Assembly (NCBI RefSeq): GCF_900499075.1
Contig: NZ_UIHC01000006.1
Coordinates: 62,001 to 126,000, forward strand
Direction: 5' to 3'
From: Roseinatronobacter ekhonensis
GTDB lineage: Bacteria; Pseudomonadota; Alphaproteobacteria; Rhodobacterales; Rhodobacteraceae
DNA length: 64,000 nucleotides
Position numbers and translations under genes: made by a program. Shown here piece by piece: positions 37,220-40,375 of the stretch (within the stretch, counting starts at the first letter, position 1; every line of letters begins with the position of its first letter). The notes below the pieces were generated by a model. That model was not told the origin of the DNA. It did not search any database and saw only the letters and a list, made by a program, of their open reading frames with translations.

Positions 37220-37360
37220 TGATTCGGCCGAGTCGTCGATGCGATGCTCACGTCTGCGGCTCTATCCACGTATAAAACTGGCCCGTTATTTTGTTTCACA
37301 AGGGCGATCTAGAAATCAGCGATTGGCCTAACTGTTTCGAATTCAAAGATAACGCTCAGA

Positions 37361-37376
37361 AAAATTTGCGAATTTT
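37361..37376. promoter_or_regulatory. AT-rich palindrome upstream of GSR-repeat gene
   Basis: AAAATT-TGCG-AATTTT is a perfect 6-bp inverted repeat with a 4-base centre, inside a locally A+T-rich stretch between dnaE and the repeat-protein gene, 106 bases before its ATG. Operator-like, but no binding protein can be named; it could equally be a weak hairpin. Confidence 0.35.
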
Positions 37377-37421
37377 GGCCAGAGTTGGGCCATGAGCGAG
37401 CCAGAATGCCGCAATTTGCCC

Positions 37422-37437
37422 TTAAGCATTTCTTAAC
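37422..37437 (+). promoter_or_regulatory. CtrA-binding box
   Basis: TTAAGCATTTCTTAAC is an exact match to the full CtrA consensus TTAA-N7-TTAAC known from Caulobacter and Rhodobacterales. It lies 45 bases before the ATG of the repeat-protein gene, an expected position for activation near the -35 region. I found no other perfect full site in the intergenic DNA of this window. Confidence 0.6.
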
Positions 37438-37481
37438 GCCGCAGTGCGTGGTTGTGACGGAAATGTGAAAGGAACGCGACG

Positions 37482-38489
37482 ATGTCTTTTAAATTTTTCA
37501 ACTGGGGCGGTAACTGGAAAAACGCCTGGAACAGCAAGAATGATGACGAGCGCGGGGCGGGAACGTCTGGCGATAAAGGATCGGGCTCGCGGGGCAGCAA
37601 AGGCTCGCGTGGCAGCCGTGGTTCGCGCGGTCACAAGGGATCTGGCTCGCGTGGCAGCCGTGGTTCGCGCGGTCACAAGGGATCTGGCTCGCGTGGTAGC
37701 CGTGGATCGCGCGGTCACAAGGGATCGGGTTCGCGTGGTAGCCGTGGTTCGCGTGGCAGCAAAGGCTCGCGTGGCAGCCGGGGATCACGCGGCAGCCGTG
37801 GTTCGCGCGGTCACAAGGGATCAGGCTCGCGTGGTAGCCGTGGATCGCGTGGCAGCAAAGGCTCGCGTGGCAGCAAAGGCTCGCGTGGCAGCCGGGGATC
37901 GCGCGGTAGCCGTGGTTCGCGCGGTCATAAGGGATCAGGCTCGCGTGGTAGCCGTGGATCGCGTGGTAGCAAAGGCTCGCGTGGCAGCCGGGGATCACGT
38001 GGTAGCAAAGGCTCATGCGGTAGCCGGGGCTCGCGTGGTAGCCGTGGTTCCGGCGGCGGTCATAACAATGACGGCACCGATGTGTCCAAGGTCAAGTTCT
38101 TCTACAGCACGGTCAACGATGACGGTACGACCAGTGAACTGACGCCTGAAGGCTGGGCGCAGGTGGTCGAAGTACAGATGCCGGAAGGCACCGCCTTTGA
38201 CGAAATCCCGCTGGAAGAGGCCGAAGAGACGGTTCTGGCCGATCTGGAAGAAAAGGGCATCGAGATTGGCGAGGTCACGCAGGTCACGGTGGTTGGCACC
38301 GATGCCGATGGCAACGAGGCATACTACGACTATAACCTGGTCGAGGATGACAAGGGCAACCTGTCGCTGGAACCAAAGTCGGAGGATGATGATTACGCCG
38401 CGCTGCTTGGCGGGGACGATCCCGACGAGGACGATCATCCCGACAAGGACGACGAGGATGACGACGACGACCACGGCTGGTGGTGCTGA
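37482..38489 (+). CDS. Gly-Ser-Arg repeat protein with acidic C-terminal domain (unrecognised family)
   Basis: 335 residues in three blocks. Residues 1-29 form an aromatic, Asn/Trp-rich head ([13 protein letters not shown]) without a signal peptide. Residues about 30-190 are a strongly basic repeat built of GSR/GSK triplets, interrupted by GHK-GS steps with HKG at 51, 65, 79, 111 and 146. Residues about 191-335 form an acidic domain, the only part that looks folded ([13 protein letters not shown] to [13 protein letters not shown]), then an Asp-rich tail ending HGWWC. The triplets are collagen-like but lack proline, and the GS steps break the register. They also resemble RS/RGG low-complexity domains. 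Only two cysteines are present, one in the repeat and one at the end. AGGAACG precedes the ATG and a CtrA box lies upstream. Function unknown. Confidence 0.85.
37621..38049 (+). repeat. Coding tandem repeat, 42-bp and 9/18-bp units
   Basis: Three nearly identical 42-bp units run head to tail at 37621-37662, 37663-37704 and 37705-37746. Further copies of the same unit occur at 37801-37842 and 37915-37956, separated by shorter 18-bp [12 protein letters not shown] units. Differences are mostly third-position changes (ggc/ggt, tct/tca/tcg), so the amino-acid pattern is kept by selection while units expand and contract in multiples of three bases. Confidence 0.95.
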
Positions 38490-38510
38490 ACGATCCTGAC
38501 TGACACGTTA

Positions 38511-38540
38511 CCGCCCGGCCATGCGCCGGGCGGTTTCATT
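38511..38540 (+). terminator. Rho-independent terminator after GSR-repeat gene
   Basis: Perfect 9-bp stem CCGCCCGGC (38511-38519) / GCCGGGCGG (38525-38533), loop CATGC, followed by TTTCATTTT. It separates the repeat gene from the phosphotransferase gene. Confidence 0.85.
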
Positions 38541-38624
38541 TTGTCCGGTCCCTGCCACGTCGCGGTCCTTCTTTCGCCACGATCTTTTGGCCTCTTGGCA
38601 GTATAGGCCCAGCAGAGGTGCGAT

Positions 38625-39671
38625 ATGGATATTGAACACACCATCAAGCGAATGGACATGGACAAGGAAGACGCGACGCGGTTCCGGCGCGTACACAGCG
38701 CGGCGCAGTCCTTGTTCGGAGATCGGCTGACAAGCATCAGCACGCCGGGTGGCAGCTACCGCGCCAGCTACCGTGTTCACTTGGGTGACACGACTGCCAT
38801 CGCCAGTTGCCGCGACGATTTCCGTCGCACGCGGATCGAAGCATTTGCATTGCGGAAAATGGGTGCGACTTGTGACTCCATGCCGCGCTGTCTGGGCCTG
38901 ACCGACGATGTGCTATTCCAGTCTGATGCCGGACAACGACGCCTTAACGTGGCCATGTTCGAAGGCGACAAGACCGCACGTGAAGCAACCGCTGCCAAGG
39001 CGGTTGAGGGGTTGTTTACCCTGCACCGCGCCGCGCGCGCCGCCGAGATGCACAAGTATATGCCGCCGCTCGGGGCCTCGCGGCCCTGGGTGACACGGTT
39101 CGTGAATGCCGTGCGCAAACTGGAAAAGCAGGGCGCACGGATGGGCAAGGGCTTTAACCGCTTCAAGGTAATAGAAGCCCTGACAGTCGAGCCGACGCAA
39201 TTTGTGAAATGGGATTGCCGGTCGGGCAATGCGGCGCTGGATGCGACGGGCAAATTACGCTGGTTCGATTTCGAATATTGCGGATTGCGCCATGGGGCAG
39301 AGGATTTCGCATGGCTGATCGCCGATGAAAGTTGGCCCATGGACCCACAAACCATGTTCGAGATGGTGCGCGATGCCTACGACCCCGACACGCCGCACCA
39401 GCGCGACGAATGGCTGGACCAGCTATCGCTGTATACGGTGTTCCATGCGTTGCAACGCCTGCAACTTATGCAGTCAGAGGTGGCCAAGCGCGGCTGGAAA
39501 TCCAAGCGCAAGGTGGTCGCCCGCGACGATGTGGGCCTGCACCCGGATTTCGCGATCCAGCTATGCCATGTCGCGATGTATTTTGCAGAGCGCAGTCGGC
39601 TGACGGCGCCACTTCTGCCCATGTTCGAAGAGGTCGCGGGCGAATTGGCGCCGCTGGCCGAGTGCGCCTGA
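38625..39671 (+). CDS. Kinase-fold phosphotransferase (APH/choline kinase-like)
   Basis: 348 residues. The second half has the aminoglycoside-phosphotransferase/choline-kinase catalytic loop in variant form, KWDCRSGN (Asp197, Asn202) in place of HGDLHPGN, followed by WFDFEY (metal Asp215) and GAEDFAWL. The N-terminal lobe is degenerate: GGSYRASYRV looks like a glycine-rich strand and Glu72 may be the helix-C glutamate, but I see no clear ATP-binding lysine. Substrates of this fold include aminoglycosides, choline, sugars and proteins; none can be assigned. The start has AGAGGTG upstream. It is preceded by the GSR-repeat gene (with a terminator between) and followed at 21 bases by an unknown Cys-motif gene, probably its operon partner. 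Confidence 0.7.
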   Translation: MDIEHTIKRMDMDKEDATRFRRVHSAAQSLFGDRLTSISTPGGSYRASYRVHLGDTTAIASCRDDFRRTRIEAFALRKMGATCDSMPRCLGLTDDVLFQSDAGQRRLNVAMFEGDKTAREATAAKAVEGLFTLHRAARAAEMHKYMPPLGASRPWVTRFVNAVRKLEKQGARMGKGFNRFKVIEALTVEPTQFVKWDCRSGNAALDATGKLRWFDFEYCGLRHGAEDFAWLIADESWPMDPQTMFEMVRDAYDPDTPHQRDEWLDQLSLYTVFHALQRLQLMQSEVAKRGWKSKRKVVARDDVGLHPDFAIQLCHVAMYFAERSRLTAPLLPMFEEVAGELAPLAECA

Positions 39672-39692
39672 GAAAACACAAGGAACGCCCGC

Positions 39693-40301
39693 ATGACCAC
39701 TTTGCAACTCACCCGCACCGCCAATAAAATCGGCTGGACGGACACCTATTACAACGGCGGCGTCGAAGGGCGTCCGCTTGCCGAATGGTTTACAGCCGAA
39801 TTCGCGGCCCATTTCGATGCGATGGATTTCAGCGCCGACCTGTCAGAGCCAGACATTGCGGCCAGCGCGGATCCGGCACCCGCCGCCCAGACCACTGCGC
39901 CGGATGTTTGTGCAAATTGCGGGCTGTGCGTGGACGGCTCCATCTTTCCGACAGAGCCGGAGGATGGCGCGAAAACACCCCGTATCGCGGGACAGACCTA
40001 TGAATGCCGCCTTCTGCGGCGCGCCCGGTCAGGCGATGTCGACCCCGCCTTCGCCGTGCAAGCGGTGCAGGATGCGCATGCCATGCAGGCCCGTGCGATT
40101 GATGGCTTTGTTGCGGCTATGCCCGAGCATTTCGGCAATTTGCGCCCGGCCACCGCGTTGGACGCCGAAGAACACTATGTTCAGGGCCGCGCATTGGGCA
40201 TCGACGTGAACAAGCTGGTGCGCGATACCGCCTGGTTCCACCATGAGACATTTCGCGGCTTCATCCGGTTGAATTTCGAAAGCAGCTTTCTGGAACGCTG
40301 A
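39693..40301 (+). CDS. Hypothetical protein with CxxCxxC motif
   Basis: 202 residues, no signal peptide or membrane segment, and no family I recognise. CANCGLC (Cys73, 76, 79) plus Cys105 could bind zinc or an iron-sulphur cluster. An Ala/Pro-rich acidic linker precedes it. The C-terminal half is helical and aromatic (AWFHHETFRGFIRLNFESSF). It starts 21 bases after the phosphotransferase stop with AAGGAACG upstream, so it is likely co-transcribed. Nothing after it suggests a longer unit; kdsA follows after about 75 bases. Confidence 0.7.
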   Translation: MTTLQLTRTANKIGWTDTYYNGGVEGRPLAEWFTAEFAAHFDAMDFSADLSEPDIAASADPAPAAQTTAPDVCANCGLCVDGSIFPTEPEDGAKTPRIAGQTYECRLLRRARSGDVDPAFAVQAVQDAHAMQARAIDGFVAAMPEHFGNLRPATALDAEEHYVQGRALGIDVNKLVRDTAWFHHETFRGFIRLNFESSFLER

Positions 40302-40375
40302 CCTGGGCACCACTCCGGGCTGGACAAGTCCTGTCATGCGCCACAAAACGGGGCAACTGACAAAGGACGCGCCCC

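Follow-up and report, generated by a model that had tools for sequence, protein, structure and literature searches.

The GSR gene and its three-gene island

The 64,000-nucleotide stretch of DNA that was analysed (hereafter, the window) carries an island of three genes between two genes that we read as dnaE and a kdsA-like gene, the latter matching Pfam DAHP_synth_1; both names are our own reading. The island encodes a repeat protein built of Gly-Ser-Arg/Lys triplets (the GSR protein), a kinase of the APH fold and a protein of 202 aa. Its features are as follows, in window positions:

37220 to 40375, no strand assigned: three-gene island, from dnaE to the kdsA-like gene, roughly 3.1 kb; absent in genomes G019 and G060
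37482 to 38489, plus strand: GSR repeat protein gene, 335 aa, ATG start (open reading frame, charge, dN/dS and repeat analyses)
37482 to 37577, plus strand: N-terminal aromatic/basic segment of the GSR protein (by eye)
37578 to 38045, plus strand: Gly-Ser-Arg/Lys repeat, residues 33-188 (Tandem Repeats Finder and repeat split)
38073 to 38375, plus strand: core of the C-terminal domain of the GSR protein, predicted to be beta-beta-alpha-beta-beta-beta
38376 to 38486, plus strand: acidic tail of the GSR protein, ending in HGWWC
38510 to 38534, plus strand: predicted terminator-like hairpin 3' of the GSR gene
38625 to 39671, plus strand: APH-fold kinase gene, 348 aa
39693 to 40301, plus strand: gene of the 202-aa protein, which carries the YNGGVEG motif and four Cys that three genomes keep
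39747 to 39791, plus strand: the motif YYNGGVEGRPLAEWF within the 202-aa gene, common to kinase-adjacent repeat proteins in other genera

The original prediction, made from the letters alone, described a block polyampholyte of 335 aa in which a GSR/GSK/GHK repeat of about 160 residues, with GHK-GS steps that shift the register, precedes an acidic domain ending in Cys. This description is accurate: the strict repeat is 156 aa long, comprising 36 GSR, 6 GSK, 5 GHK, 1 GSC and 6 GS steps, and contains no Pro, while Tandem Repeats Finder scores the array at up to 464. The charge is +48 over residues 1-188 and -40 over the remainder, and none of 2000 composition-preserving shuffles attains the +48 maximum. 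The repeat is about as rich in Ser as in basic residues, and across four species its ratio of Ser to Arg/Lys is near parity (50:47, 41:37, 35:34 and 13:8). Cys occurs only at positions 179 and 335. For the suggested cross-linking through these two residues the outcome is divided: the terminal Cys is kept in all four GSR-type proteins, whereas the repeat Cys is missing in the G034 copy, so a cross-link that needs both residues is not a conserved feature.

The Gly, Ser, Arg and Lys codons within the repeat vary synonymously, and dN/dS of the C-terminal domain is 0.11-0.18 across all six pairs of the four genomes, compared with 0.05-0.09 for the kinase and 0.05-0.09 for the end of dnaE (three pairs each). 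Together, the codon variation and the dN/dS of the domain show that the GSR protein is translated and under constraint; the +1-frame and antisense open reading frames overlying the repeat are taken as shadow frames. In keeping with the original prediction, the frame is therefore conserved, and its C-terminal domain matches no characterised family (see below).

Among the 37 genomes of the genus, the kinase gene is found in four, in G034 in partial form. These four also encode the full 202-aa protein, and they are the genomes with a GSR-type protein; three more matches to the 202-aa protein are weak and partial, and every one contains stops. The GSR gene follows dnaE in the window, G028 and G034, and the kinase gene follows the GSR gene in the window, G028 and G015. 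The 202-aa gene follows the kinase gene in all four, and after it the kdsA-like gene can be seen in the window, G028 and G015. The rest of the order is hidden by contig ends, and adjacency holds wherever the contigs show it. In G019 and G060 the site is empty: dnaE is followed by about 70 bp and then the kdsA-like gene (by hand). A dnaE tree of eight genomes groups the four carriers with G019 and G060 as six sisters (100/100). It leaves the monophyly of the carriers among the six undecided, since a single change suffices in 16% of the bootstrap trees and the best tree needs two. As the four GSR genomes fall within one clade of six, the co-occurrence of the three genes there may be a single event. 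PADLOC gave no matches for the three island proteins. In the 202-aa protein, Cys 73, 76, 79 and 105 (CxxCxxC) are kept in three aligned genomes and are possibly a metal site.

The C-terminal domain and its relatives

As had been predicted, the C-terminal domain belongs to no described family that we could find: none is named for it in Pfam, NCBIfam or PHROGs, and Foldseek against PDB and viral structures, using models of GSR-type and helical-type proteins (see below), returned nothing at E <= 0.001. Searches of viral and plasmid collections, with the domain among the queries, found no relatives. As a query, the domain matches 6 of the 37 genus genomes and, when genomes were drawn evenly across the family, 2 of 394, both from the window's genus. 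Within this one Rhodobacterales genus it is conserved, as the dN/dS values of four genomes given above show. The AlphaFold2 model predicts a beta-beta-alpha-beta-beta-beta order with a mean pLDDT of 66, the core being mostly at about 80.

The domain also occurs behind a different N-terminal block. A GSR-type protein is present in four genomes, with repeats that one measure puts at 162, 131, 121 and 40 aa. A helical-type relative is present in 12 of the 37 (one with an in-frame stop), and G034 holds both types. In these paralogues a long helical block precedes the C-terminal domain in place of the GSR repeat; for one of them, AlphaFold2 predicts two long helices (27-81 and 85-133) and then the same element order. 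The domains of L006 and L007 are 45-52% identical to that of the window, and those of the remaining helical-type proteins are further from it.

These comparisons bear on whether the GSR protein acts as a cytoplasmic basic-acidic polyampholyte, protecting or condensing macromolecules at high salt in the manner of a hydrophilin, or binding nucleic acid. The charge diblock is kept in all four GSR-type proteins, if weaker in the helical paralogues, and record names and listed papers give saline or soda habitats as the source of the relatives. The helical paralogues, however, carry only a small basic charge (+4 to +19), which means that conservation does not extend to a polycationic role, and such a function leaves the link to the kinase unexplained; we consider it very improbable.

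Several proteins encountered in the searches are set apart here. The A5-type domain (L040, L041, L025, L028 and L030) was considered as a relative of the window domain. Profile comparison gave a probability of 0.8%, and homology is thus not claimed; the sole connection is the helical block common to paralogues. L038 was rejected as a relative, being only a match of an Asp-rich profile; it encodes (L038:1150-2238), in the genome of another genus, a protein rich in Gly and His (GHGHGHGGG) that has stretches resembling KGHGWWGRKDDDDD. L021, L022 and L025-L033 (alignment A2) form a family within the genus with a helical block and an acidic domain, which has no named family and only weak Apolipoprotein matches below the cut-off. 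At the three loci of the helical-block family that were checked (L014, L015 and L017), we read dnaG- and rpoD-like genes nearby. Finally, L040, L041 and L047-L059 encode proteins with GLSYTVTVYE ... MDVNAIYFGDDDFSG ... GPLNMNG, found in 15 of the 394 family genomes, whose ends are often acidic and then hydrophobic; L040 and L041 reach no Pfam or NCBIfam cut-off.

Recurrent pairing of an APH-fold kinase gene with Gly-Ser/Thr-rich genes

The catalytic motif of the kinase is intact. K195, D197, R199, N202, D215 and E217 are invariant in all 23 aligned kinases, every one of which has the D-x-x-x-x-N loop and the D-x-E of APH enzymes. Pfam APH matches 8 of the 23 (best 5.9e-9) and RIO1 one (E <= 0.01), while the CotH models of Pfam match none at that threshold. 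The window kinase itself scores 19.7 bits against Pfam APH (PF01636), for which the cut-off is 23.2, and no NCBIfam model matched the three members that were searched. Among solved structures, the kinase profile has its best match in corramycin phosphotransferase, an antibiotic phosphotransferase (PDB 8agy, E 4.2e-8).

Of 168 family genomes, 22 from other genera have a match to the kinase, with identities of 25-51%. For 20 of these 22 loci, 9.5-17 kb around the kinase was taken (about 308 kb in all) and scanned for 80-aa windows with at least 50% Gly/Ser/Thr and a minimum of Gly and of Ser+Thr, a criterion that in part counts RTX repeats and is passed marginally by L136 (0.51) and L138 (0.54). 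An adjacent Gly-Ser/Thr-rich gene was flagged at 15 of the 20, at a distance of at most 674 nt and, in 14 of the 15, 5' of the kinase, the same side as in the window. Elsewhere in the same 308 kb the criterion picked out two antisense shadows and nothing more, and on 209 kb of control sequence it returned the three GSR genes and a single further frame. Adding L141, whose TGSTNTGSKNT-rich RTX partner falls below the Gly threshold and was counted by eye, brings the total to 16 of 22 other-genus loci, the partners being not all basic. No repeat partner was seen at L129, L134, L135 and L142, and none was clear at the short loci L121 and L122. A short frame with MADGGWGDFKYKSSGSGSG (L122:1062-1335) lies beside the L122 kinase remnant, which bears an in-frame stop; it is perhaps a decayed partner. 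In the open-access literature that we searched, no paper was found with NGGVEG, and no title or opening of an abstract describes the kinase/repeat-protein pair.

The partners are diverse, their common feature being Gly with Ser/Thr. At the 12 loci with kinases at least 41% identical to that of the window, 10 partners have GGTKGS, GSGGTKGS or similar repeats together with the YNGGVEG motif. Partners of the more distant kinases are five RTX proteins (four with Hint_2), with GS/GST stretches, and L139, which has a GS-rich protein. As a pattern, the motif reads Y[HY]NGG[VI][ED]G..[FL]..W[YF]; it is present in the ten partners just named and in the 202-aa protein, and is lacking from the GSR protein itself, which has in common with the L131 partner a KFFNW start (by eye). 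A six-frame scan of 517 kb gave 16 occurrences, 13 in kinase-adjacent repeat proteins and three in 202-aa proteins (window, G028 and G015); this is a consistency check and no independent test, because the pattern was derived from the same proteins and kinase loci make up 308 of the 517 kb. In L126, L128 and L130 a second copy of the motif is followed by a second array, while L123, L127 and L131 have second arrays without the motif directly ahead. The L132 partner starts with TDTYYNGGVEG, like the 202-aa protein, and runs into a Gly-Ser/Thr stretch that the contig end cuts.

The surroundings of the kinase allow another reading, namely that its substrate is a sugar, a lipid or a precursor of a polysaccharide, and that the repeat proteins are unmodified structural components of the same matrix, so that the genes would lie together because both serve that matrix. 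Across 21 kinase loci, a sugar-transferase gene lies near seven, a Wzz-like gene near six and a flippase-like gene near six, and a GNAT gene adjoins the kinase at six (assignments from Pfam run on one representative each). At L129 and L134 such polysaccharide clusters hold the kinase and no repeat partner, and small molecules are the usual substrates of APH-fold enzymes. The pairing is also seen, however, where no such cluster was found (for instance in the window, at L125, L127 and L131-L133, and at the RTX loci), and the shared motif is located in the repeat proteins. We therefore regard this reading as rather unlikely.

Alternatively, the GSR block may be a collagen-like or other rod that distances the acidic domain from the cell, with the helical hairpin as another form of spacer and the kinase link incidental. 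Pfam Collagen matches the GSR protein at 70.2 bits (cut-off 27.2; E 1.3e-19), the helical block precedes the same C-terminal domain in paralogues, and the repeat ranges from 40 to 162 aa across species. Like the bacterial collagen-like proteins Scl1/Scl2 and Lcl, the GSR protein has a tandem repeat of Gly-X-Y type. Collagen-like triplets usually contain Pro, whereas this repeat has none, and 6 GS steps among 54 break its register; the cut-offs of the collagen-like equivalogs are far from reached (84 vs 325, 61.4 vs 500 and 61.3 vs 400 bits). A collagen fibre as the main reading was set aside for the lack of Pro and the register shifts. Furthermore, GSR-type genes are confined to the four kinase-bearing genomes, and in other genera several of the kinase partners depart from Gly-X-Y: among the eight with clear arrays, five have the 8-residue GSGGTKGS, which breaks it, and three have GGTKGS, which keeps it. 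The doubt about a collagen helix that was raised at the outset is thus reinforced, and we consider a spacer improbable.

It should be noted that the NCBIfam model for HxsA4 (NF038313) also passes on the GSR protein, by 1.7 bits (56.7 vs a cut-off of 55), and is a possible source of wrong annotation. This identity was rejected, there being no H-x-S in the protein; genes for Hxs maturation would presumably be expected near a true HxsA4.

A candidate kinase/repeat-substrate module and its known counterparts

We propose, at roughly even odds (about 0.5), that the GSR protein is the substrate of a dedicated kinase/repeat-substrate module that would work like CotH with CotB and CotG, using an unrelated kinase. 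The APH-fold kinase would place phosphate onto the hydroxyl groups of Ser in the Gly-Ser-Arg/Lys array, or onto a sugar there, and the 202-aa protein with its YNGGVEG motif would be an adaptor or a second substrate. Given the near parity of Ser and Arg/Lys in the four GSR repeats, phosphorylation of Ser could neutralise or invert the block, turning a strongly basic segment into a dense alternating polyampholyte, which may self-associate or bind divalent cations or polysaccharide. In this scheme the C-terminal domain, which is acidic, and the tail would serve as a partner block or as a signal for export or assembly. The original prediction is partly supported by these results: the polyampholyte stands, whereas the Ser richness of the repeat and the island with its kinase-like gene, a pairing that recurs elsewhere, had been overlooked.

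The RTX partners and the polysaccharide genes point to the cell surface, and the most likely place of the GSR product is the surface of the cell or its matrix. The acidic tails of several partners end in hydrophobic residues, a feature reminiscent of type I secretion signals. Points against the module are the likeness of the kinase to an antibiotic phosphotransferase, the six of 22 loci at which no repeat partner was seen, the absence of the YNGGVEG motif from the GSR protein and the terminator-like hairpin between the GSR gene and the kinase gene; a similar GC-rich hairpin is seen by eye in the other three GSR genomes, and the count of terminator-like sites in the region is no higher than in shuffles.

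A broader version of the proposal, which we offer tentatively and rate at somewhat below even chances, is that of an undescribed polyphosphorylation system in Rhodobacterales. Here, the APH-fold protein kinase would dock via the YNGGVEG module and phosphorylate the Gly-Ser/Thr arrays of exported proteins encoded next to it, giving a phospho-polyampholyte matrix or adhesive comparable in principle to phosphorylated silk or a spore coat. If so, a kinase family that Pfam sees only weakly as a phosphotransferase would modify a set of repetitive surface proteins that lack annotation, across a large bacterial family, and two or three genes would suffice to produce phosphorylated protein materials in ordinary laboratory bacteria. 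The motif provides a simple handle to find more members.

With the APH phosphotransferases (PF01636; 8agy) the kinase shares the D-x-x-x-x-N catalytic loop and the D-x-E, and it differs from them in its linkage to repeat-protein genes. SR proteins with their SRPK kinases, and the phosphoserine silk of caddisflies, have low-complexity Ser-rich blocks with many phosphorylated sites; they are eukaryotic, and the likeness is to the GSR system as proposed.

The closest working analogue is found in B. subtilis, where CotH polyphosphorylates the Ser/Lys/Arg repeats of CotB and CotG, whose genes adjoin its own (PMC7821199). In both cases a kinase gene is clustered with two protein genes and the substrate, established there and proposed here, is a low-complexity tandem repeat rich in Ser and Lys/Arg; in the window, the gene for a Ser-rich, basic repeat protein lies beside that of the kinase. 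The differences are that the kinase is APH-like, the repeats are Gly-based, the host is an alphaproteobacterium, phosphorylation is at present a proposal, and just one of the two neighbours of the kinase is repetitive, unlike CotB and CotG. As no CotH model matches, the comparison is one of working and not of membership, and the island, if the proposal holds, would be a second case of the CotH principle built on an unrelated kinase.
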